NCBI GenBank assembly: GCA_944324315.1
Contig: CALUVW010000017.1
Span: forward strand, 1 to 46,881
Source of the DNA: Candidatus Gastranaerophilales bacterium
GTDB taxonomy: Bacteria > Cyanobacteriota > Vampirovibrionia > Gastranaerophilales > Gastranaerophilaceae
Direction: 5' to 3'
DNA: 46,881 nt
Shown one piece after another: positions 3,420 to 39,576 of this stretch. A program made the translations under genes and the position numbers. The first letter of the stretch is position 1; each line of letters begins with the position of its first letter. Under the pieces are notes generated by a model. That model saw only the letters and a program-made list of their open reading frames with translations, ran no database searches and was not told where the DNA came from.

Positions 3420-3461
3420 GTGCTGTTCCAATTTTTCATCTTCAGAGGTAATGTGTTGCGT

Positions 3462-3968
3462 ATGGGAAACAGTTATATAAATATTAAAGAAATCGCTCAG
3501 GCTAAGGGATTAAAGAGTACCCGCTCAATCCGAATAGAAATAAACAAACCTGAAAGCAAATATATTTCAAGAGAAGTCAAAGTTAACGGCGGTATCTCAT
3601 ACGAAATATTGTTTTCAAGTTTAGAACCTGAATTACAACAAAAACTTCGGGAATGCGAAACCAAATCAACGGCAATAGTTCCCCTTAATTACAAACCGCC
3701 GACTGTAACGGATAAAGCAAGATTGAAGGCAAATCACAGAATGAACATTGTTAAAGCCGCACTTGAATACAGAAATAAATATCAAACAATAAAAGAAACT
3801 GATACGGAATTTTTAGACCTGTATAATTCAGGTTTGTATTTACTAAAAGCATACAAATTTCTTGGTAGTATTTCAATCGGAACTTTAAGAAGATACATAC
3901 AAGCCTACAAGAAAACAGGCAACGCAGAATCACTACAAGCTGTTGACTTTTACGGTAAACTACTATGA
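3462..3968 (+). pseudogene. Mu-type transposase, N-terminal fragment
   Basis: About 168 codons from the ATG at 3462 (a GTG at 3453 is also in frame and closer to AGAGG). The start (YINIKEIAQAKGLKSTRSI) followed by VKVNGGISYEILFSSLEPEL resembles the winged DNA-binding N-terminus of MuA/BcepMu-type transposases, and the end (ISIGTLRRYIQAYKKTGNAESL) the following helical segment. The DDE catalytic core is missing: similarity stops near 3945, where unrelated minus-strand methylase sequence begins. An intact transposase is about 600-700 aa, so this is a non-functional relic. Confidence 0.7.
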
Positions 3969-4068
3969 ACTCATGTTCAATTACAAAATATTCTTTTGCT
4001 TGACCACCACCATCTTTCTTTCTCCATATAAAAGAGCCTATATAATTTTCTTCTCCAAAAACTTCATT
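3946..4068 (-). pseudogene. DNA methyltransferase (Mod/N6-N4 type), internal fragment
   Basis: Reading 4068 to 3946 on the minus strand gives an open 41-codon segment: NEVFGEENYIGSFIWRKK, then DGGGQAKEYFVIEHEFIVVY, then RKS. This strongly resembles the segment of type III Mod-like DNA adenine methyltransferases that runs 'DEVFGEENFI...W.K...A......EHEYILVYAK'. No catalytic DPPY is included. It overlaps the 3' end of the helicase remnant in another frame, so helicase and methylase were probably adjacent genes of one restriction-type locus before decay. Right-hand sequence continues directly into the transposase relic. Confidence 0.6.
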
Positions 4069-4807
4069 ACAACCGTAACTTTATCGGCAATAGATTTTGT
4101 AAATGTCGTAAACAATATATCTTCCGAACTTTCAACAAGTTGTTCATTTGCTTGCCTGTGCTCCGTCAAGTTTTCTTGGAAAGCCCGAGCAACTTCATCT
4201 CTGTGTCTGAAATTTTTTAGGACTTCCTTTATCTTTACATCAAAGTTACCTACAATATCATCCGACATTCCGAAAATCCTGTTAAACTGCAAAGTCCACT
4301 TGTTTATAAGTTCAAGCATTCTGACATCAGCAAAATTTTCATGGCTTAAAAGATTTATAACCAGCACATCAGAATTCTGTCCTTGTCTGTGGCACCTGCA
4401 AATCCTCTGCTCCATTTGAATTGAATTATAAATATCATATCGTAATTTACAACCACAGGACAGTATTCTATATCCAAACCCTTCGCCGCATCATCGGTTG
4501 CGATTAGAATTTGAATATCCGCATCCGCTCTGAATCTTTCCAATGAATTGTTGTCTTTGTATTTTATAGTGTTGTACCCATCCTGCAAAAACAATTTATA
4601 TAGAACATCCAGTGTCGTGGAATTACTTACAAAAATGATTGCTTTTTGATTAACTTTCATTGCTTTCAGGTGGTTAAAAACGGTTTTTAAAATTTTCAAA
4701 AGCTGTGTGGTTTTTGAATTAATTTTTATTTCTGATGCAAGTTTTTGAATATGCAGCAGAGCAGCTTTTTCAAGTCCATAAGTTCTTTGAATTGCAGGAG
4801 ATATCAT
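4038..4807 (-). pseudogene. SNF2/DEAD-type helicase, C-terminal remnant with frameshift
   Basis: Two minus-strand frames join into one helicase C-terminal domain. The first (4807 to about 4440) contains ATDDAAKGLDIEYCPVVVNYD (motif V region, split here as ATDDAAKGLDIEY / CPVVVNYD). The second, from about 4440 down to 4038, begins YNSIQMEQRICRCHRQGQ, the motif VI arginine-finger segment. The frame change falls between these motifs, near 4437-4445. The N-terminal ATPase lobe is absent. Followed on the same strand by the methylase fragment, fitting an SNF2 helicase plus methylase restriction or defence locus. Confidence 0.75.
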
Positions 4808-5183
4808 ATTGCCAAACGCCTACGATGAAGATGAAAGTGTAAAAAAAACAACAGGTTAAGGTTGTATTCATCTATTTCGGGGTAGGCAATCGAAAAAATT
4901 AAATCTTTCATCTAATATTGCACTAGAGAGGTTAACTCCGAAATTAGAGCCGGGTGCTTACACTAAATTACTGGTTGCTAAGATTCAAGCAACAAATGAA
5001 AGAATTAAGACTTTAGAAGAAGCAATTGCAACACAGGTAAAACCAGCAAAAGTCAGAGATGCCGAAGCGGATTTAAGTTTTTATAGAAATTGGGATGATG
5101 CGTATCAAAAAAACAAATATGAAACAGAAGCAGAAAGTGCTAAAAAAGCTGAACGCGATAAATACTGGAAAGGTTTTAAGTGG

Positions 5184-6701
5184 ATGTCTGATGGAGACTC
5201 AAAATATGATGAAAAAATGCAGCCGTATTGGAACGGACATTGGAGACATCAGAGAATCGAGTGGAATTTAGATGATTTAAGACAGATTGTTGCTGATTAT
5301 AATAGTTCAAAAGATTTACAGCGTCAAACTTTAGAGGCATTAAAACGAGAAAGAGCGTCATACATTGCCCAATTAACCAGTGCTCATCTGGGAGATTATG
5401 TAAATCAAACAGTAAATCAGCATGGCAGCATTAATGAAAGAATAGCCGGATATATTGATGTAAAAGAACAAATCAAAAAGGATTTTGTAGCTCCTCTGCT
5501 TGCAAGCAAAGATAATCCGAATGTAAGCTTGCCAAATGCGGTTGTACTTTATGGTGCTACAGGTGTTGGCAAAACAGAAATGCTTAAAGGTGTAGAAGAA
5601 GAATGTAAAGCTGTTGCAGAGATTGTTCATTTCCCGATGGATACATCGTTGGATGATTTTCGAAAAGAAATGGATAAATTATTGGAGCAGGCAAAAAACA
5701 GATTTGATAAAACCAAAAAACGAACTATTCTTCTTATTGATGAGGCTGAAAAGTATATGTGTATGAGTGAATTAAAAGCTAATCGGTTAGCCACTGAATT
5801 TGAAGCGGATGATTTTGAAATTTTAAATAAATATGGCAATAACGATAAGGATAATGTTGATTATTTAAAATCACTTCTTGATTGGATATCAGAAGTTCCA
5901 AAGGAAGGAGAAACAAACAAGTCAAAAAGTGCTACAACATTATTTATAACAACCAACTATCCACACTTGATTGATCAGGATTTGATGAGAAGAAAAGGAA
6001 AATTTACGCCAATTGCGGTTCATCCTGCTAAGGATTTTAATTTGGAAGCTGTAATTAAGCACTATTTTAAACAAAATTCAGACCTTCTTGAACAAATTAA
6101 AATGCTTGCCCCGAATGACAATTTTACAGAAATTCTGAATGGACAGGTAAAATTTTCAGAGAAAGCAAAAAATGTTTTGTTAGAGAAAAGAACCAACGGC
6201 ACAATAAATAACATGCATATTGACTATGAATTATCTGACTGGCCTGACCTTAAACGATTCATAAAATTTATGAACCCGTCAGACAAACGCGGGGCATACA
6301 GTAATGTTGAAATTAAAGATATGATTTCAAAAGCTTTTGATAGATATCTTGAAAATCCGACCAAACCTATGTACAAGTATTTCTTTGATATTAAAAATGA
6401 AACCAACAGAGATATTACACCTGCAAGATACAGCAAATTCAGAACAATTTACAATATGGTAACAGATAAGTTTGATTCAGAAGGTTTTGGACAGGCAGAA
6501 AAAAATTTCACCGACCTAATTAATGCTTACCAGAACGGAGAACTCAATGAAGAAATGTGTACAGCAGTAGAAAAACAGATGGCACATATTCAGGAAGAGT
6601 TACAAAAACTTCAATCTAAAATGAAAGCAGGCATAGCTCTAACAGAAGGTGAACAAATGCAGTATGACCTGTTCAAGAAATATGACAGTATCTGGGAATA
6701 A
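5184..6701 (+). CDS. AAA+ ATPase, probably 5'-truncated
   Basis: 505 aa from the ATG at 5184. Walker A GATGVGKT at residues 124-131, Walker B ILLIDE at 182-187, sensor-1 asparagine in TTNYPHLI near residue 258, and RR at 269-270 as candidate arginine finger: a complete classical AAA+ domain. The same frame stays open back to about 4860 with credible protein sequence (coiled-coil-like, ERLTPKLEPGAYTKLL and onward) but has no ATG, GTG or TTG there and meets a TAA at 4857-4859. The original N-terminus therefore seems lost to the rearranged DNA upstream. A weak AAAGG precedes 5184. First of four co-directional genes; paralogous to the gene at 8822. Substrate unknown. Confidence 0.8.
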   Translation: MSDGDSKYDEKMQPYWNGHWRHQRIEWNLDDLRQIVADYNSSKDLQRQTLEALKRERASYIAQLTSAHLGDYVNQTVNQHGSINERIAGYIDVKEQIKKDFVAPLLASKDNPNVSLPNAVVLYGATGVGKTEMLKGVEEECKAVAEIVHFPMDTSLDDFRKEMDKLLEQAKNRFDKTKKRTILLIDEAEKYMCMSELKANRLATEFEADDFEILNKYGNNDKDNVDYLKSLLDWISEVPKEGETNKSKSATTLFITTNYPHLIDQDLMRRKGKFTPIAVHPAKDFNLEAVIKHYFKQNSDLLEQIKMLAPNDNFTEILNGQVKFSEKAKNVLLEKRTNGTINNMHIDYELSDWPDLKRFIKFMNPSDKRGAYSNVEIKDMISKAFDRYLENPTKPMYKYFFDIKNETNRDITPARYSKFRTIYNMVTDKFDSEGFGQAEKNFTDLINAYQNGELNEEMCTAVEKQMAHIQEELQKLQSKMKAGIALTEGEQMQYDLFKKYDSIWE

Positions 6702-6716
6702 AGAGGAATTACATTT

Positions 6717-8414
6717 ATGTATATAACAAAAATTGACGGGAATTATAACTATAAAAATAATCCTTATTTTTCAGCAAAAATTCCAGAAAAAGAACTAATA
6801 CAAGAATTAAAGAAAATTGCAGTAAGTGAAAGCGATATTGTCCAAAAACATATCTCATATTTAAATGATATGCAAAAAGGCAGTGATATCTCCCCTGAAA
6901 GAAAAGCTGCAATTAATGAGTGGCTGAGCATGAAATTATATGAAGCATCATCTTTTGATCCAGTAAAAGAAGAACAAAAAGTAAAAGAACAAATTGAATA
7001 TATGGAAAAAGACAAAACCCCTAATAAATTAATCCGTACAGGGAAAAAAGTTTTTCAATTTATTAAGAAAAAAATAACCGATGAACCAGAATACGTTCAT
7101 CCTATGATGCGTAGTTTTAATGCCCAAAAACATGAATTATCCTTTTTTGAAAAATTTAGAGATTTATTCTCTTCATATTTGGAATTAATCCCTAAATCCG
7201 TTCAGGAAAAAGCTAAGACATCAAACAATAAACCACCTGAGCTAGAAGATATTTTAAAACAAATCGGTCTTGAAAAATATGGACTGGACATGTCAAAACA
7301 AAGTGATAATATAGAAACAAAAGGAGTCAGTATAATGGACAGCATCAATTTATCCACAAATAAAACAAATATTCCATCTCAAGGAGTACCCCCGAACAGC
7401 CATCCGCAGCAGACAATAAAAACACCTGAACTCAAGGAAGATACTTTTGAACGTGAAGATAAAAGTAAAATGAGTAAAGGGAAAAAAGCTGCAATTGCGG
7501 CAGGAGCTGCAGGTGCAGCTGCAGCTGTTACTTATATCGCAACAAGAGGAAAGAATAAAAAAGCGGGAAAACAAGCAGTTGAAGAAGGGAAGAAAATTGT
7601 TGATACCGGTAAAAAAGCCGTAAAAGAAATTATTGAGACTAAGTCACCTCAAGAAATAGAAAATATTCCTAAAAAATTTCAGGAACTTAAGAAAAAAAAC
7701 ATGGAATATTATGAAAAATGGCTCAATAAAATCCCGTATGATGAAAAAGAATATGACAGATGGAGAGCAGAAGAATATGACCCGTTTATGAAGCGAATAA
7801 AAGAGAAGAATTTGTCAACTGTCGAGAAAAAAATATTTTCACTAAATCCAAATGAGCAAGTGAAAGAAAAAGAGGAGTATCTGCGTTCGGTTTTATCACG
7901 TGCACGTGACAGCGAAGCTTCATACTATGACGGACTTGTTGAATTCGAAAAATATGGAAGAAAAGAATCACTTTTTGAGGGATTCACAACAAATATTACT
8001 TATTTTCAGACAAAATTTCCCGAAAATCCAAGCGAAAAAACTGTAAACAAATTTATGGATATTTGCGAAAAATTCGGTAAAAGTATGTCTTTAGATAAAT
8101 ATGGTGATTTGGACAACCATACCGACGGACTTAACTTTATGGCTGTAATCTCAGAAAAAGGAGTTATAACATCAATTGACCAGTTAAAACGAGCATTAGA
8201 AAAAGGTAAAAAAATTATATGGAGTAATCGTAGTATTAACAATCTTAAATGGACATTAATGCGTGCAGAAGATGCTCCATACAAAAATAATAAAGAAGTT
8301 AAAGAAATATTGCAAAAATTCTACGATACAGCTTATGAAAACAAAAAACCTTTTATTAAAACGTTTTTTGAAGAACATGGAGATCCAAATGAATTAGAAC
8401 ATATAATTCTATAA
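6717..8414 (+). CDS. Hypothetical protein with central membrane anchor and duplicated module
   Basis: 565 aa, 15 nt after the AAA+ gene. The N-terminus has NPYFSAK (residues 15-21), a weak version of the F-x-G motif seen elsewhere in the window. Residues 207 to about 265 repeat the protein encoded at 8497: MDSINLSTNKTNIPSQG, then PQQTIKTPELKEDTFE, then a basic-flanked Ala/Gly-rich hydrophobic stretch (KKAAIAAGAAGAAAAVTYIA) that looks like one membrane helix. A charged, coiled-coil-like region of about 300 aa follows. The ATG at 7335 (residue 207) has its own AAGGAG upstream, so a shorter product may be made, or this is a fusion of two genes. Function unknown. Confidence 0.7.
   Translation: MYITKIDGNYNYKNNPYFSAKIPEKELIQELKKIAVSESDIVQKHISYLNDMQKGSDISPERKAAINEWLSMKLYEASSFDPVKEEQKVKEQIEYMEKDKTPNKLIRTGKKVFQFIKKKITDEPEYVHPMMRSFNAQKHELSFFEKFRDLFSSYLELIPKSVQEKAKTSNNKPPELEDILKQIGLEKYGLDMSKQSDNIETKGVSIMDSINLSTNKTNIPSQGVPPNSHPQQTIKTPELKEDTFEREDKSKMSKGKKAAIAAGAAGAAAAVTYIATRGKNKKAGKQAVEEGKKIVDTGKKAVKEIIETKSPQEIENIPKKFQELKKKNMEYYEKWLNKIPYDEKEYDRWRAEEYDPFMKRIKEKNLSTVEKKIFSLNPNEQVKEKEEYLRSVLSRARDSEASYYDGLVEFEKYGRKESLFEGFTTNITYFQTKFPENPSEKTVNKFMDICEKFGKSMSLDKYGDLDNHTDGLNFMAVISEKGVITSIDQLKRALEKGKKIIWSNRSINNLKWTLMRAEDAPYKNNKEVKEILQKFYDTAYENKKPFIKTFFEEHGDPNELEHIIL
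7321..7337 (+). promoter_or_regulatory. Internal ribosome-binding site and ATG within the 6717 gene
   Basis: AAGGAG (7321-7326) sits 8 nt before the in-frame ATG at 7335-7337. The paralogue at 8497 begins at exactly the equivalent ATG with TTGGAG upstream, so the start signal itself appears to have been duplicated with the module. Confidence 0.5.
7335..7490 (+). repeat. Duplicated coding module, copy 1
   Basis: About 150 bp (ATGGACAGCATCAAT onward through the ATGAGTAAA before the membrane segment) nearly repeated at 8497-8650. At protein level about 40 of the first 49 residues agree; the membrane segments then diverge. Confidence 0.85.
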
Positions 8415-8496
8415 AAAAGTAAATCTATAAAAATTTATTACATGTATTAGCAAAAAATAAATATTTTGTGTTTTCTAAAAAATTGGAGCAATAATA

Positions 8497-8650
8497 ATGG
8501 ACAGCATCAATCTATTCACAAATAAAACGAGTATTCCTTCACAAGGTATAACACCAAATAAACAACCGCAGCAGACAATAAAAACACCTGAACTCAAGGA
8601 AGATACTTTTGAACATGAAGATAAAAGTAAAATGAGTAAAAGGAAGAAAA
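8497..8650 (+). repeat. Duplicated coding module, copy 2
   Basis: Second copy of the module at 7335-7490, including start codon context. Confidence 0.85.
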
Positions 8651-8802
8651 TTGCTATAGGAGCTGCAATAATTGGCGGGATTTGGGCTATTACTGAATTT
8701 ATCATTTGGAGATATGACAAATCTACAAATAAAGTTTTAAAAGAAGCTGAAAAAACATTTCAAGAAACTAAAAAATCTCTTGATGAATTGGGAAATATCT
8801 AA
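8497..8802 (+). CDS. Small single-pass membrane protein (duplicated module)
   Basis: 101 aa. Residues 1-49 closely match residues 207-255 of the 6717 gene product, followed by a hydrophobic helix (IAIGAAIIGGIWAITEFIIW, residues about 53-72) flanked by lysine and arginine, and a short charged tail ending LDELGNI. TTGGAG lies upstream of the ATG. The Pro/Gln/Thr-rich N-terminal part plus one helix suggests a tethered adaptor or regulatory protein. It lies between the large duplicated-module gene and the degenerate AAA+ gene, all on the same strand. Function unknown. Confidence 0.75.
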   Translation: MDSINLFTNKTSIPSQGITPNKQPQQTIKTPELKEDTFEHEDKSKMSKRKKIAIGAAIIGGIWAITEFIIWRYDKSTNKVLKEAEKTFQETKKSLDELGNI

Positions 8803-8821
8803 ATAATATTATGGTTAAAAT

Positions 8822-10144
8822 ATGAAAATCACTGCTATAAACAATATAAATAAAAATATTCAATATAGAAACAATAATTATAACTCTGTATCTGTAAAAT
8901 ATGAAAATACCAAAAATTTAACTAAAGATGAATTTATACATAAATCGGTTAAGCCTCATAATCCAAGTTTTAAAGGCAGTGATGCTTATAAATTTGTAAT
9001 GTATAATTTAGAAAACGGATTTCTTGGCTATACTAAAGAAAAAGCAAAGCTTGCACAATCTTTTTTAGTACCATTTGTTGAGTCAATAAGAAATCCGGAA
9101 ATACCGGTTCCTCCATCAATCCTTTTGCATGGTTCAGAAACAAATGTAATTAACAACATTATAAATAGAATTAATTATATCCTAAGTCCACTACCTTATG
9201 ATGTAGTAAAACTTGTAAAGACTTCGAAAGAGGACTTCTTTGCAAATATTAAAAATCTATTAAATGCTCATCAGATATCTAGTCAACAAGGACGTTATAG
9301 ATTTATTACAGTTATTGACGAACCTGAAAATCATTTAGGAATGACGTATACACAGGCTAAAAGATTGTTAAATTTTAACTTCACCCCAGAAGATATAAAA
9401 ATCCTAAACGAAAATAATGATAATGTTGATAATATAAATTATTTAAAAAGTTTGCTTGATAACTGCAGTAAGCCGGCCGCTGATAGAGGTTATGCAACAT
9501 CTTTTATATTTACTTCAAAAAATCCACATTTAATTCATCCTGATTTTCGAAAAGGGAAAATGGAAAAAATTGGTTTCAACAGACCGGAAGATGCAGGTGT
9601 ATTATTCCTTAATATGCTAAAATCACATAAGGAAGCGATTGAAAGTCTTGTCACAGATGACCCTACAAAAATTTATTATAAAAACAGGTTAAAAAATGTT
9701 AATCTTGAAGATTTAAGTATTCAACAGATAGATGAAATAAGAAATTTCTTTGAGCCCAACTACCCTAAAGGAGCATTCAGTTATGGTGATATTAGGAATT
9801 TAACTTTTGATACTTTCAGTACAATTATTAAAAATGATGAAAGAGTTCCATGGGTGGACTGTTTGTATGCAACGCTAAATAACAGCAAAAGATCCTATAC
9901 TCCTGAACAAGTAGTAAGACAAATGGAAATTTCAGATTTATTTGAAAAGCGCCAATCCATGTATAACTTTTTAAAAAACAAATTCGAAAATGGAGACATA
10001 AGTCCAGAAGAAATAATACAGTTTGATTTTCATGCTGCTGTAAGAAAAGCCCAAATAACTATGTTAGAAAAATTAGAAAAAGAAGATAAACTTAATATTT
10101 ATGATAAGTATACTTTGAAAAAATTTAAAGAAGAAGAATTATAA
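8822..10144 (+). CDS. AAA+ paralogue with degenerate Walker A (pseudo-ATPase)
   Basis: 440 aa; aligns with the AAA+ protein at 5184 through the whole ATPase domain. Walker A GATGVGKT is replaced by GSETNVIN (residues 104-111), so the P-loop lysine and Ser/Thr are gone. Walker B is kept (ITVIDEPE, D166 E167), as is the sensor-1 region (TSKNPHLI, N234) and the shared block NYLKSLLDN (206-214). The N-terminus has the motif NPSFKGSDAY at 47-56, in an Asn-rich region. It has no convincing Shine-Dalgarno and starts 20 nt after the 101-aa gene. ATP hydrolysis is unlikely; ATP-independent binding or a structural role beside the active paralogue is the inference. Confidence 0.8.
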   Translation: MKITAINNINKNIQYRNNNYNSVSVKYENTKNLTKDEFIHKSVKPHNPSFKGSDAYKFVMYNLENGFLGYTKEKAKLAQSFLVPFVESIRNPEIPVPPSILLHGSETNVINNIINRINYILSPLPYDVVKLVKTSKEDFFANIKNLLNAHQISSQQGRYRFITVIDEPENHLGMTYTQAKRLLNFNFTPEDIKILNENNDNVDNINYLKSLLDNCSKPAADRGYATSFIFTSKNPHLIHPDFRKGKMEKIGFNRPEDAGVLFLNMLKSHKEAIESLVTDDPTKIYYKNRLKNVNLEDLSIQQIDEIRNFFEPNYPKGAFSYGDIRNLTFDTFSTIIKNDERVPWVDCLYATLNNSKRSYTPEQVVRQMEISDLFEKRQSMYNFLKNKFENGDISPEEIIQFDFHAAVRKAQITMLEKLEKEDKLNIYDKYTLKKFKEEEL

Positions 10145-10176: not shown

Positions 10177-11151
10177 ATGAAAAAGATATTGATTATTTTT
10201 TTACTTTTTACTGGCTGTTTTATTAATTGTTTTGCTGCAGAAATTCAACTTACAGACTATTCTGATAACTCAAACTGGCTTTCAAAACCTGCAAAAACAT
10301 ACTCTGCTGACGTTTTTTATATTTATCCGACTGTTTGCACAACGGAAGATAAAAGTAATCTATGTGCAATAGATAATAAACAAATGAGAGAAAGTGCAAA
10401 AACTGTTTTTAAACTTCAGGCGGAAGCTTTTGATACCGTTGCAAATATTTATGCCCCTTTTTATACTCAGTATAATTTCAGAGCATTTGAATACTCACAT
10501 TATGAAAAGATTCAACAAAATACATTAAATAATGCTCAGGGGCTTTCGGATGTTTATGGGGCACTCGACTATTATTTTAAAAAATTAAATCAAGGTCGTC
10601 CATATATTCTTGTCAGTCACTCGCAGGGTTCAGCTATAATGCTTGTTGTCTTGAGCGATTATATGAAAAAACATCCCGAATATTACAAAAATATGGCTGC
10701 GGCTTATGTTATAGGCTATCCTGTTACAAAAGAGTATTTAAAGAATAATCCTCATCTTAAATTCGCAAAAAAATCAGATGATACAGGAGTAATCATTTCA
10801 TATGATGTTCAGGCTCCAGACAAATCGGGAATAAATGTTTTACAGGCAAAAAATCAGTTGGTTATAAATCCTATAAGTTGGAGCAGAGGACAAAGGCGCA
10901 TTAAGGCAGATAAAAACCTCGGCAGCTTGGATGAAAAAACTTTAAAAATAACAACTCCTGGTATTGCAGATGCAAAGATTAATAAAAAACTCGGTGTTGT
11001 TATTTGTTCGACAGTTGATACTGCAAAATATGAAATAAAACTTCCTAAACTATTCGGGAATGGTTCTTTCCACGGACAGGATTTTCAATTTTACTTTCTT
11101 AACCTTAGAGAAAATGCAAAAGTTAGAATTGATAAATTCTTAAACAGATAG
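10177..11151 (+). CDS. Secreted DUF3089 alpha/beta hydrolase
   Basis: 324 aa with a clear N-terminal signal peptide (MKKILIIFLLFTGCFINCFA, cleavage likely after A20). The body fits DUF3089 (PF11288), a lipase-like alpha/beta-hydrolase family: ADVFYIYPTV near residue 44, the GALDYYF helix near 128-134, nucleophile elbow SHSQGSA at 147-153 with S149 as candidate nucleophile, and VIGYPVT near 178-184. The elbow has Ser where Gly is usual at the first position. Likely exported across the inner membrane; substrate unknown. Separate transcription unit (own -10 box). Confidence 0.85.
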   Translation: MKKILIIFLLFTGCFINCFAAEIQLTDYSDNSNWLSKPAKTYSADVFYIYPTVCTTEDKSNLCAIDNKQMRESAKTVFKLQAEAFDTVANIYAPFYTQYNFRAFEYSHYEKIQQNTLNNAQGLSDVYGALDYYFKKLNQGRPYILVSHSQGSAIMLVVLSDYMKKHPEYYKNMAAAYVIGYPVTKEYLKNNPHLKFAKKSDDTGVIISYDVQAPDKSGINVLQAKNQLVINPISWSRGQRRIKADKNLGSLDEKTLKITTPGIADAKINKKLGVVICSTVDTAKYEIKLPKLFGNGSFHGQDFQFYFLNLRENAKVRIDKFLNR

Positions 11152-13625: not shown

Positions 13626-13904
13626 ATGAATTTGAATATTAATTCTCCATCTTTTAAGAGTGTGTATACGGTAGACACAGGAAGTGCCACATCTAAAACT
13701 CAAATTTTTACACTAGGTGCTTTAATGAATAATTTTTGGCTGAATAATGCCGGCACTACTTTCAATAAAATAAGAAATACCGGAGTTTACGGACAAGTTG
13801 ACTTTAATGTAAAAGATTATAAAGACAGCTCGTTTGAATCCATTATGAATAACAACGGTATTTCTTATAAGAAGAAAAACAACACTCTTAACTATATTGC
13901 TTAG
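13626..13904 (+). CDS. Small hypothetical protein with F-x-G-type N-terminus
   Basis: 92 aa from 13626 (94 aa from the ATG at 13620). Begins MNLNINSPSFKSVYTVDTGS; the SPSFKS segment matches the motif NPSFKGS of the 8822 protein and similar segments elsewhere. No membrane helix or known domain. No Shine-Dalgarno; TATAAT ends 6 nt before the start. Its stop overlaps the stop of the convergent gene at 13901 by 3 nt. Confidence 0.6.
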   Translation: MNLNINSPSFKSVYTVDTGSATSKTQIFTLGALMNNFWLNNAGTTFNKIRNTGVYGQVDFNVKDYKDSSFESIMNNNGISYKKKNNTLNYIA

Positions 13905-15247
13905 TTGTTGTTATTAAAAAATTTATTTTCAAGGTTTATTTTGAATTTAACCAGTTTATATTTTATAAATCCTGTTAAAGTTCTGGTATCAGACCTTAAA
14001 TCATTTAAAGTTGCTTCCTGCATAACCCTGTTAATATATGGTTTTCCATCAATAAGATCTTTTGCCAATTCAATTTCATTATAATTTCCAATAAGATTAT
14101 TGCGATAAGCTTTAAATAAATTTTTTAAAGAGTTAATTTTTTTATTTACAACCTTTGTATCAATATTTGCAATAAATTCATACAAAGAAACAGGAGATTT
14201 AAAGGGTATATTTTTTTCTATAACATTGTAAACAAATTCCTTATCATTTTCATTGTTTTCAATCTTATGTAATATATCTGGCACTACTTTTATATTTTCA
14301 GAATTTTCTGCAAATGACATATAATTTTTAGATAAATAATTATCAAAAAAGTATATTCTGTCTTTATAATTATCCCGATTTGAGGATTTCAAAATCTTCA
14401 ATAAAGTTTCATTCAAAGCTTTTTTATCATAAGATACTAAAAAGCGTAAACTTTTTCCAAAATGTGAAATAACTTCCATTTTTTCTGGATAATAATCCGA
14501 CATAAGCACTTCTTCTGATAAATCTGAAAATTTTTCATCTTGATTTTTCAAATTAATAATATCAAACAACTGTTCATACTTCTGTGGCTGATATGATTTA
14601 TTTTCTATTGCCTGTTCCAAATCAGATACAATATTTTTCTTATTAATATTCAAATATAAATATGGTTTATAATCAGCAAAATTTTTATTAATTTCTGAAG
14701 CATATTTTGAATTAACAAAGCCTGATAAGAAATTGTAAGATAGTTTTTTTGTATTAATTATCTTCTCATTCAAATTTAATAATTTTAAAACAAGATCTGT
14801 TTTATCTTTGTTTTTATCCATTGCGACAAATAAATTTTCAAGCTCTCCGAAGGATAAATTATCTTGTTTGGCCAATTTTTTATGAACAATTGATGGTTTA
14901 GAAATATTTGAAACCATATCAGCCACATTCTTAAAATTTGTTCCTAACTCTTTAGACTGATTTGTAAAATATAAATTTCTATACTTTCTTCCTAAAATAT
15001 ACATCAAGTCATGTTTTATCTGATTCCCAGAGGTGTAAATATTTTTAGCATAGTCTGCCTCTTTAGATGAAATATTAAAATACCTCTGCATATTATAATT
15101 AAAATTTTTATACATTTTAGATTGCGGTATTCTTAAAATTTTTGCGGGAGAAAAACTGCCGCTAAAATGTATACTATCTGATTTATTTGAGTTGTTTGTA
15201 ATACTGTACTGAGATACAAATTTTTGGGGTAAATTGTCTACTTTCAT
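13901..15247 (-). CDS. Hypothetical helical protein with F-x-G motif
   Basis: 448 aa, lysine- and asparagine-rich, almost entirely helical, no signal peptide. Residues 24-30 are DSIHFSG, an F-x-G motif after an Asn/Ser-rich start (MKVDNLPQKFVSQYSITNNS). The remainder resembles helical-repeat proteins but no family is recognised. SD is weak (GAAG/AAGAAG stretch). It lies directly downstream of no operon partner: mnmG begins 1.9 kb upstream on the same strand and ends 40 nt before this start, so co-transcription with mnmG is possible. Confidence 0.7.
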   Translation of the reverse strand: MKVDNLPQKFVSQYSITNNSNKSDSIHFSGSFSPAKILRIPQSKMYKNFNYNMQRYFNISSKEADYAKNIYTSGNQIKHDLMYILGRKYRNLYFTNQSKELGTNFKNVADMVSNISKPSIVHKKLAKQDNLSFGELENLFVAMDKNKDKTDLVLKLLNLNEKIINTKKLSYNFLSGFVNSKYASEINKNFADYKPYLYLNINKKNIVSDLEQAIENKSYQPQKYEQLFDIINLKNQDEKFSDLSEEVLMSDYYPEKMEVISHFGKSLRFLVSYDKKALNETLLKILKSSNRDNYKDRIYFFDNYLSKNYMSFAENSENIKVVPDILHKIENNENDKEFVYNVIEKNIPFKSPVSLYEFIANIDTKVVNKKINSLKNLFKAYRNNLIGNYNEIELAKDLIDGKPYINRVMQEATLNDLRSDTRTLTGFIKYKLVKFKINLENKFFNNNN

Positions 15248-38148: not shown

Positions 38149-39576
38149 ATGAAAGTGGAAAGTGCAAATTTTAATATTTTTAATGCCTCTAATCTACCGA
38201 ATAATACTCAGGTAAATCGGTCTATATCAAAACAATCATTCACAGGCGGCATAGCTCCTTCAGTTTTAGCAGATGAGATTAACAAATTAAATACACCATT
38301 TTTAAAGGGAGTTAACAGACTCAGGAACAACATAGGGGAATTTCAGGATATTTGTTTAAATGCTTTAGGAACAGGATTTTTAGCTCCTTTATTTATCAAA
38401 TACAATCCGTTATCACATACAGATGAAGATACCAGAACTTATTCAGCCTGGAGACAACCCCTTTCTGCCGGTTTGGCAATTGTCACACAGGGAGGCATCA
38501 CAATTCCTTTTGTAGCACTTATTAATCACATGACAAATTCAGGCTGGTTTAATGAAAAATGTAATAAATCACCTTTCAAAGATGAAAAATATATTTACAG
38601 AACAATAAAAAAACTCAACCCGAAACTTAATAAATCACAAATTAACGAAAAAGTTAAAAGTTATATTGACGCACAAAAGAAATCATTAATTGATAATTTA
38701 AGACAGAATAATACAATTTATTATCAATATAATAATTCTCCTTATGCAACACCTATGAATTCAGAAAAATTCAAAAATCTATTAAACAAAACCATTGAAG
38801 ATATGCTCAAAGAAGAAAAAGATGAACTTGCAAGATGTAAGGGAGAAAAACTTAAAAACAGAATAGAAAGATCGGATTTTTACAGAACACATTATGATAC
38901 CTGCAAAAGTCTCTTTACAGATATTGAAAACAAAATAAATAGTGCAGGCAGTGTAAAAGAAATAAGTGACTATTTAAAAGCAAAATACAAAACACTTAAA
39001 ACACAAAAAGCGGATCCTCATTTACTTGAAATATTAAAAGAAATAAAAGCGTATGAAGTTGCCGGTAAAGAAGGCTTCTTATATAAAGTTCAAAAAATGC
39101 AGGATGCCCAACATCTTGAAGGCTACAAAGGGATGAAAACCCGCCGGGAAGTAGAAGAAAAAGTTGCAAAAAATCTTGCCGGCAGAATTTCCGAGCAGGA
39201 AGATATCATCGAATTTCTTGAAAAAGTAAAACAATCCCTCTCAGAAGGCAAAACCGTAAGCGATATTGAAGAAATGTTTGCTCAAAAGGTTAAAGAATTT
39301 AAAAATAAAGGCAAAGAATTTAAGTTACATGACAAAATCTTTTCAGAAGAAGTTATAGAAAAATTAAAGTCGTTGACTCAAAGCCATATTGACGGAGTTA
39401 AACGAATTTCAACCTTACTGGTTGCACTTGCAATGCTTCCTGTAAGCTGCTCTATATTAAACTGGGTATACCCGAGATTTATGGATGCGGTATTCCCTAA
39501 ACTTTCAAGCAAAAAACATTCAAATGAAGCAAAAGAACTTATTGATAAAGCAAATAAGAATAGCGGGGTGAAATGA
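38149..39576 (+). CDS. Hypothetical protein with F-x-G motif and membrane segments
   Basis: 475 aa. Begins MKVESANFNIFNASNLPNN and has KQSFTGG at residues 28-34. Two possible hydrophobic regions (ALGTGFLAPLF near 63-73 and AGLAIVTQGGITIPFVAL near 105-122) and one near the C-terminus (ISTLLVALAMLPVSCSIL), separated by a long Lys/Glu-rich helical domain. AGG is about 8 nt upstream of the ATG. Overlaps the next gene by 4 nt (ATGA), so the two are translated together. No known domain. Confidence 0.72.
   Translation: MKVESANFNIFNASNLPNNTQVNRSISKQSFTGGIAPSVLADEINKLNTPFLKGVNRLRNNIGEFQDICLNALGTGFLAPLFIKYNPLSHTDEDTRTYSAWRQPLSAGLAIVTQGGITIPFVALINHMTNSGWFNEKCNKSPFKDEKYIYRTIKKLNPKLNKSQINEKVKSYIDAQKKSLIDNLRQNNTIYYQYNNSPYATPMNSEKFKNLLNKTIEDMLKEEKDELARCKGEKLKNRIERSDFYRTHYDTCKSLFTDIENKINSAGSVKEISDYLKAKYKTLKTQKADPHLLEILKEIKAYEVAGKEGFLYKVQKMQDAQHLEGYKGMKTRREVEEKVAKNLAGRISEQEDIIEFLEKVKQSLSEGKTVSDIEEMFAQKVKEFKNKGKEFKLHDKIFSEEVIEKLKSLTQSHIDGVKRISTLLVALAMLPVSCSILNWVYPRFMDAVFPKLSSKKHSNEAKELIDKANKNSGVK

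Follow-up and report, generated by a model that had tools for sequence, protein, structure and literature searches.

An ATP-dead partner beside an AAA ATPase in Gastranaerophilaceae: a conserved gene unit and its truncated copy in one genome

Why should a bacterium keep, close to an AAA ATPase with an intact P-loop, a second AAA protein in which this loop has decayed? The question is raised by a stretch of 46,881 nucleotides (nt), called the window here, which covers positions 1 to 46,881 of contig CALUVW010000017.1 (assembly GCA_944324315.1) of a Candidatus Gastranaerophilales bacterium. Gastranaerophilales are related to cyanobacteria and live in the gut; most are uncultured, and their biology is poorly known. 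A preliminary description, made from the letters of the window alone, pointed to a set of four collinear genes between 5184 and 10144, in which an active and an inactive AAA+ protein enclose two proteins with a common membrane anchor. All four open reading frames (ORFs) were found on the plus strand, at 5184-6701 (505 amino acids, aa), 6717-8414 (565 aa), 8497-8802 (101 aa) and 8822-10144 (440 aa), separated by 15, 82 and 19 nt. The pairing of an active with a dead AAA protein around the anchor genes recurs in other genomes; it is real, old and conserved, and the four genes of the window are the damaged rear part of a longer unit. Below, G-numbers are genomes and L-numbers are loci or contig stretches; G000 is the window's own genome, and L073 is contig CALUVV010000006.1 of G042, its closest relative. 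The main features are as follows (TM, transmembrane; dN/dS, ratio of nonsynonymous to synonymous substitution rates).

5184-6701, plus strand: AAA1, a classic AAA ATPase, N-terminally truncated (505 of about 670 aa; dN/dS to G042 0.097)
5550-5576, plus strand: intact Walker A of AAA1, YGATGVGKT
6717-8414, plus strand: gene 2, 565 aa, with a helical N-domain, a copied gene-3 head with a predicted TM segment, and a helical C-domain (dN/dS 0.15)
7335-7511, plus strand: the gene-3 head within gene 2, including the start codon of gene 3 and running into the predicted TM segment (about 7485-7547)
8497-8802, plus strand: gene 3, 101 aa, predicted TM anchor only, C-domain lost
8822-10144, plus strand: pseudo-AAA, an AAA fold without P-loop (dN/dS to G042 0.16)
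9131-9154, plus strand: degenerate Walker A of pseudo-AAA, GSETNVIN
9548-9550, plus strand: Arg243 of pseudo-AAA, at the second-region-of-homology arginine, a putative arginine finger

AAA1 matches Pfam AAA (PF00004) at 7.5e-11 (43 bits against a cut-off of 21.2) over one AAA stretch, and the Pfam scan found no peptidase family in it. Its profile matches Cdc48 (1.2e-7), Vps4 (6.3e-6) and FtsHi4 (1.9e-5) among PDB sequences. The Walker A motif was described as intact, and GATGVGKT is indeed present in the window and unbroken in all 16 aligned AAA1 proteins. The protein encoded at 8822, here called pseudo-AAA, was rightly taken for a paralogue, as tblastn aligns the two with 28% identity over query residues 86-461 (E 1.6e-17). 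For pseudo-AAA the Pfam scan gave nothing better than 0.0099 and no von Willebrand A (VWA) match. Its predicted structure is a classic AAA fold with one AAA domain (predicted local distance difference test, pLDDT, 81.4; predicted template-modelling score, pTM, 0.78). Foldseek matched the model to p97, Vps4 and Pch2 at about 1e-6, and VIA to Drg1/Afg2 (Z 17.3; 4.8 Å over 257 residues), Vps4 (16.9) and Pex1/Pex6 (16.8), with 989 of 998 chains at Z>=8.

What this fold lacks is a functional P-loop of the form GxxxxGK[ST]. GSETNVIN stands where AAA1 has GATGVGKT, just as was read from the window, and a search for an intact P-loop among homologues found none: all 13 partners are degenerate at the same columns, L094 retaining GK without the first Gly spacing and the T/S. 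R243 and K246 are invariant in nine of nine aligned pseudo-AAA proteins. The proteins range from 364 to 578 aa, with a C-terminal extension in some. The dead protein was also said to keep its Walker B acids. This is true of the window copy (IDEPE), but the relatives have IENIEN, LNNIEN or LDKIEN, so that retention of Walker B is incidental and was rejected as a family trait.

How widely is the pair kept? A profile search of genome contigs gave 23 AAA1 loci, which make 24 with the window; a single-sequence search of genome contigs with the 8822 protein found nothing. Pseudo-AAA is present at 13 of the 24, namely the window, L073-L077, L082, L083, L084, L087, L089, L093 and L094, the last with the dead gene before AAA1. 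At seven loci (L078, L079, L080, L081, L085, L086 and L090) the contig ends 2-2706 bp past AAA1, too early for a decision, and at four there are AAA1 and anchors without pseudo-AAA. The expected co-occurrence in other genomes was therefore borne out in part. Wherever the contig of an AAA1 locus continues for 1.9 kb or more downstream, anchor-family genes adjoin AAA1.

The history of the pair was read from a tree of AAA domains, made from 62 of 67 rows with the P-loop columns removed (L051_6972, L043_11828, L041_10535, L047_556 and L058_13467 were dropped). All 20 AAA1 rows form one clade (99/98), and the dead partners lie beside it in two groups of 10 and 2 rows, whose union the tree does not resolve. 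The dead state needs four changes by parsimony, and at least two by the starred branches, since other arrays gained dead members too. Distance matrices of AAA1, pseudo-AAA and the anchor are closely correlated (0.92, 0.93 and 0.97; Mantel p 0.0002), as would be expected of vertical co-inheritance; the test covers 11 loci and leaves out L037 (with AAA1 on another contig), L075, L094 and the loci without a partner. Both genes are under purifying selection: in diverged pairs AAA1 has a dN/dS of 0.09-0.10 and pseudo-AAA one of 0.16-0.23. The ratios of 0.32 and 0.50 in the closest pair, L074/L075 (dS 0.03-0.06), are little informative.

Other arrays of the same family have dead subunits of their own. 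At L055, L056, L058 and L062, P-loop-dead members stand beside active ones, separate from the window type on the tree, and L055 and L056 have three active and one dead AAA each. Tandem AAA pairs with both P-loops intact occur at L049, L050, L052 and L053; L054 has one GPIRCGKS variant.

The two middle genes were described as sharing a membrane-anchor module, and their heads are 84.7% identical in DNA over 177 bp (gene 2 nt 619-795 against gene 3 nt 1-171). Membrane insertion is predicted from hydropathy, which has its maximum at residue 257 of the G042 gene-2 orthologue. The model of the 565-aa protein (pLDDT 71.5) has no PDB match at E<=0.001 for the whole chain, and its parts may have a known fold. 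In G160, G043 and others, the two middle genes differ in their heads, soluble and helical in one and of the TM kind in the other, and both continue into the same C-domain. Judged from these sequences, gene 2 of the window clade is a fusion of two middle genes that are separate in G160 and G043. The TM head of gene 3 was fused into gene 2 with its start codon, which explains the sharing noted in the window. Gene 3 is probably vestigial; it is likewise about 100 aa in L075, and in G042 only a stop-interrupted start remains of it.

Between the two C-domain copies of the middle genes at one locus, DNA identity is 100% over 800 bp in L082, 712 bp in L091 and 827 bp in L093, 99.2% over 743 bp in L076, 98.6% over 724 bp in L077, 98.1% over 679 bp in L083 and 97.5% over 717 bp in L084, and the C-domains of L087, L089, L092 and L095 are 64-70% alike or unalignable as DNA. 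They are thus homogenised in 7 of the 11 loci with two C-domain copies, a count that leaves out the TM-only pairs (window, L074, L075, L086 and L088) and early-ending contigs; 14 middle-gene pairs were compared first, and L095 and L074 were added later. The same gene is only 68% identical between L082 and L083. Therefore the identity within a locus is recent and arose via gene conversion or fresh duplication. Assembly collapse of identical repeats in metagenome-assembled genomes (MAGs) may also produce such identity, though several assemblies contribute to it.

What, then, has the window lost? From 4892 onward its DNA corresponds to AAA1 from L073 9709, with 97.4% identity, and the features upstream of AAA1 are these.

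3420-3968, plus strand: ORF of 182 aa bearing a helix-turn-helix (HTH), possibly a truncated transposase (Pfam HTH_23 only at E 0.19)
3934-4072, strand unassigned: fragment 91.4% identical over 139 bp to L073 3081-3219, which lies upstream of the G042 helicase (a restriction-type neighbour); leftover of an earlier deletion
4071-4888, minus strand: remnant of a SNF2-type helicase gene, 5' end lost (83.5% over 819 bp to L073 4820-5636)
4888-4892, no strand: deletion junction relative to G042, where 4072 bp (L073 5637-9708) are gone
4892-5183, plus strand: leftover AAA1 frame, orthologue codons about 66-162, open, without in-frame ATG/GTG/TTG

In L073 the missing 4072 bp carry the 5' part of the helicase gene, genes cl10 (6633-7457) and cl11 (7454-8509), the HExxH gene cl2 (8651-9499) and the first ~195 nt (~65 codons) of AAA1. 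The AAA1 frame of the window is open for 613 codons, and its first ATG/GTG/TTG, at 5184, is codon 163 of the 670-aa orthologue. The view that the four genes are the whole unit was rejected: the unit of the relatives comprises 6-7 genes or more, and a deletion has left the window with a remnant. This copy is probably impaired, because AAA1 lost its N-terminus and the upstream region and the HExxH neighbour are gone. The genes had also been called bounded by mobile and restriction relics. The restriction or helicase side of this statement stands on the G042 matches at 3934-4072 and 4071-4888; the ORF at 4355-4807 within the latter matches Pfam Helicase_C at 4.1e-09, and the intact helicase of G042 is DrmD-like (PADLOC DrmD, 2.1e-86). 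The mobile side is weak, as it comes from the ORF at 3420-3968, which was only presumed to be mobile.

Gene maps of the relatives have two main arrangements around the core of AAA1, middle genes and pseudo-AAA. In the window clade (L073-L078) the upstream genes are cl10, the divergent cl11 and cl2. The last adjoins AAA1 in these six relatives, and HExxH is found in 11 of 11 cl2 members, a motif that suggests a metallopeptidase. In the other type (L079-L083, L086-L091 and L094) the upstream genes encode a triple-AAA protein (AAA 1e-76 in L038; IetA 3.5e-70), an ankyrin/GLUG protein (Ank_2 1.7e-29, Glug 5.7e-7) and a ~350-aa protein without Pfam match, the C-terminus of which is His-rich in the copies read. 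L084, L085, L092, L093 and L095 have neither upstream set. The succession of the triple-AAA protein and the ankyrin and GLUG-repeat protein, at L081:1981-8305 and equivalents, makes a eukaryote-like repertoire.

The unit is restricted to one family. AAA1 is matched at 1e-5 in 73 of 241 genomes of the order, many only to the AAA domain; at 1e-30 its profile finds 18 of 289 genomes of the class, all Gastranaerophilaceae. The titles of 21 of the 23 named loci are Gastranaerophilales, Melainabacteria, Cyanobacteria or 'uncultured bacterium'. At L080 ('Clostridia') and L084 ('Muribaculaceae') the cassette genes nest among Gastranaerophilales ones, and these are probably misbinned contigs. A plasmid or phage gene set was also considered, and was rejected as no match was found in IMG/VR contigs, PLSDB or INPHARED at the thresholds used.

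Defence-type genes are met in the flanks. Beside the DrmD-like helicase, G042 has a match to PDC-S21 (7.9e-85), and PADLOC neighbours elsewhere are SspD (6.3e-83) and MTase_II (2.8e-61) in L075, PDC-M41B (5.9e-116) in G160 and RT-DUF1848 (2.5e-41) in G076. Flank genes differ between close relatives, with PDC-S21 in L073 and SspD in L075. At 1e-30, about 11 of 78 flank proteins match PADLOC versus 1 of 78 random G000 proteins (Fisher p 0.005), a comparison with one control genome, neighbours that are not independent and a flank set that mixes genomes. Without L046 and L048 it is 7 of 56 versus 1 of 78 (p 0.009), with member counts partly inferred: dGTPase and ZorB were assigned to these two loci by inference, and the PDC-S13 member is unassigned. 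These figures suggest an enrichment of defence genes in the flanks.

Several other features were seen near the cassette or across the genomes. A DUF3089 gene at 10177-11151 (Pfam 2.3e-44) begins 32 nt after pseudo-AAA and is not conserved in the close relatives of the cassette. A DUF3089-like gene at L060:5548-6309 (G018) adjoins AAA fragments, and a DUF3089-adjacent insertion hotspot was considered on this one other genome and is unproven. At the left end of the window, the minus strand at 200-1273 encodes a protein without Pfam match that has an HExxH motif (VMHELKHAEQ). Many unrelated Gastranaerophilales proteins start with M-K/N-I/V and have F-x-G/A in the first ~85 residues after a disordered-looking stretch. 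Examples in the window are encoded at 8822-10144 (residues 48-52), 13901-15247 and 38149-39576, and most cassette genes belong here as well. F-x-G/A/S is found in 118 of 161 cassette genes, a count with no matched control. A general N-terminal F-x-G signal was sought in the window and 14 random stretches of G000, each of 20 kb. A loose pattern occurs at the N-terminus of 30 of 198 proteins, which is no clear enrichment over the 25 of 198 with it at residues 100-160 and the 12 of 198 among shuffled sequences. The M-[KNRQEIL]-[IVL] start and F-x-G/A are enriched in joint occurrence (14 of 26 versus 39 of 199, p 0.0004; the 14 stretches without the window), and several of the 14 look spurious. 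The N-terminal F-x-G is possibly a shared targeting or docking peptide.

Does the cassette belong to a known system? No description of its composition was found in searches of an open-access library, in agreement with the earlier statement that no such system had been described. The nearest working parallel is Pex1/Pex6 with Pex15, a peroxisomal heterohexameric AAA motor with a tail-anchored recruiter (PMC5762779); the cassette likewise may join a heteromeric classic AAA motor to a small anchored membrane recruiter, and the pseudo-AAA model has chains of Pex1/Pex6 among its best matches in structure. However, Pex1/Pex6 is a eukaryotic double ring, whereas AAA1 and pseudo-AAA have one AAA domain each, and kinship is found only in the AAA domain. 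Inactive D1 domains occur in Pex1/Pex6 as well. A mix of active and inactive subunits is also known from the FtsH12-FtsHi (Ycf2) chloroplast import motor, a membrane-bound heteromeric AAA complex (PMC8197885), and FtsHi4 is among the profile matches of AAA1. There it is the protease site that is inactive while the AAA is kept, whereas the cassette loses the P-loop. The intact unit belongs to neither of these two systems. It also differs from FtsH and m-AAA, in which AAA and M41 peptidase are in one polypeptide, since the HExxH gene of the cassette is separate, and absent from the window locus.

Magnesium chelatase D has a VWA domain, and I/D is in another AAA+ clade; the 8822 protein, in contrast, gave no VWA match. 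The likeness is that of two paired AAA+ paralogues, one driving hydrolysis and the other acting allosterically (PMC3789969). IetAS resembles the cassette in having an AAA ATPase beside a protease-like gene, often in a defence island, and it is the triple-AAA gene that matches IetA. However, AAA1 matches IetA at only 0.0022, and the anchors and the dead AAA have no counterpart there. The peptidase-like neighbour is of HExxH type, with no PADLOC match at E<=0.01, whereas IetS is a subtilase.

How might the intact unit work? In our judgement it is about as likely as not a heteromeric AAA+ motor that is recruited to the membrane and remodels proteins, presumably as an unfoldase, in the manner of the classic AAA proteins Cdc48 and Vps4; it would be similar to Pex1/Pex6-Pex15, probably accessory and perhaps anti-phage. 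AAA1 would be the motor, hydrolysing ATP. Pseudo-AAA, which would bind no ATP via a P-loop, most likely sits in the same ring, because the fold and the invariant arginine are kept; it could supply an arginine finger and/or asymmetry, in the form of an asymmetric docking face, or substrate binding. The proteins with a TM head and C-domain would tether the ring to the membrane, and the soluble C-domain twin with its different head may be an adaptor or a competitor that delivers or releases substrate. Gene conversion would hold both C-domains identical because, as we propose, each of them has to bind to this one ring. The HExxH protein of the window clade is a likely partner peptidase, which may degrade the unfolded substrate. 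The unit is probably accessory, is confined to Gastranaerophilaceae and seems often to lie in defence islands, and therefore an anti-phage or other stress or conflict role is the leading guess. In a more daring and rather improbable version, this is a family-specific conflict system: a half-dead AAA ring would be aimed by exchangeable C-domains, and recombination, which would keep the anchored and the soluble middle gene the same in DNA over 700-830 bp and copy changes from one body to the other or swap heads between them, would give switchable or fast-renewing targeting to a membrane unfoldase or protease that acts on phage or host membrane proteins.

Several observations tell against such a motor or its role in defence. 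At 4 of the 17 decidable loci (L088, L091, L092 and L095), AAA1 and anchors are present and pseudo-AAA is absent, with more than 9.7 kb of contig beyond AAA1; therefore the system can do without the dead subunit. A canonical aromatic-x-Gly pore loop is not evident in the AAA1 alignment, which has mostly Phe there, and many AAA1 proteins have Asn in place of the Walker B Asp (LINEAE), which could weaken hydrolysis. The HExxH gene is not beside AAA1 in the other cassette type. The 565-aa, pseudo-AAA, cl2 and cl11 proteins match no PADLOC family (cl2 none at E<=0.01), and the core proteins match no defence family there beyond generic AAA, AAA1 giving weak AAA matches with DolB best (1.1e-6). The genes beside L092 and L095 (in G223 and G070), which we take to be secE/nusG/rplK, make no defence island. 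Such apparent translation and secretion housekeeping neighbours would suit a constitutive envelope machine for inner-membrane protein extraction or quality control, with the proximity of defence genes reflecting accessory genome plasticity. The absence of defence-family matches would suit it too, as would the age of the family within Gastranaerophilaceae and its co-divergence. We think such a machine possible but lean against it, on account of its patchy occurrence in a single family, the variable flanks of close relatives and the apparent enrichment of PADLOC-type genes in flanks. That pseudo-AAA works outside the ring as a separate regulator, e.g., as a decoy or a substrate receptor competing for the anchors, would fit its dispensability at the four loci, its variable length and its C-terminal extensions; it is unlikely, as the classic AAA fold is complete in the model, where the second region of homology is kept with its invariant arginine, and pseudo-AAA groups beside AAA1 in the tree.

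It might also be thought that the pair arose by a chance duplication, after which one copy drifted. The dead copy does evolve faster, with aa identity to G042 of 0.77 versus 0.93 for AAA1. But the same degeneracy in all 13 partners, the co-divergence, the purifying selection and the open frames where AAA1 is kept make this extremely improbable, and as a general account it is contradicted by the tree and the co-divergence. In G034 the pseudo-AAA frame is broken where AAA1 is gone, which we read as dependence. Another matter is whether the locus in G000 is a functionless decaying relic, with the biology lying in the relatives, and here our judgement is evenly divided. The 4.07-kb deletion took the AAA1 start and the HExxH gene, and no second cl2 match was found elsewhere in G000 at E<=0.001. 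On contig C16 of G000, 85 bp (L071:3915-3999) show 95% identity to the beginning of the pseudo-AAA gene; they are the relic of a second copy, of whose start 33 codons remain, about 2.4 kb from another AAA-family gene. Decay is stronger still in G034 (L072), in which genes 2 and 3 have also collapsed to one 117-aa ORF. On the other side, all four frames of the window are open, and AAA1 retains its AAA domain and an ATG at 5184. Its dN/dS since the split from G042 (dS 0.37) is 0.10, though the deletion may be recent, and a MAG assembly error at the junction is possible.

For annotation, the locus is a warning, since the window has only the rear end, four genes, of a longer unit. That two neighbouring genes are so strongly homogenised is a case of recombination that can be tested, and the related arrays, in which dead subunits have arisen repeatedly, offer a natural series on why AAA rings retain inactive subunits. 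If the proposed motor is true, Gastranaerophilaceae would possess a multi-gene bacterial counterpart, confined to this one family, of eukaryotic heteromeric motors like Pex1/Pex6. It would combine an ATP-dead partner of ancient origin with membrane anchors encoded apart from it and, at some loci, with a gene resembling those of metallopeptidases.

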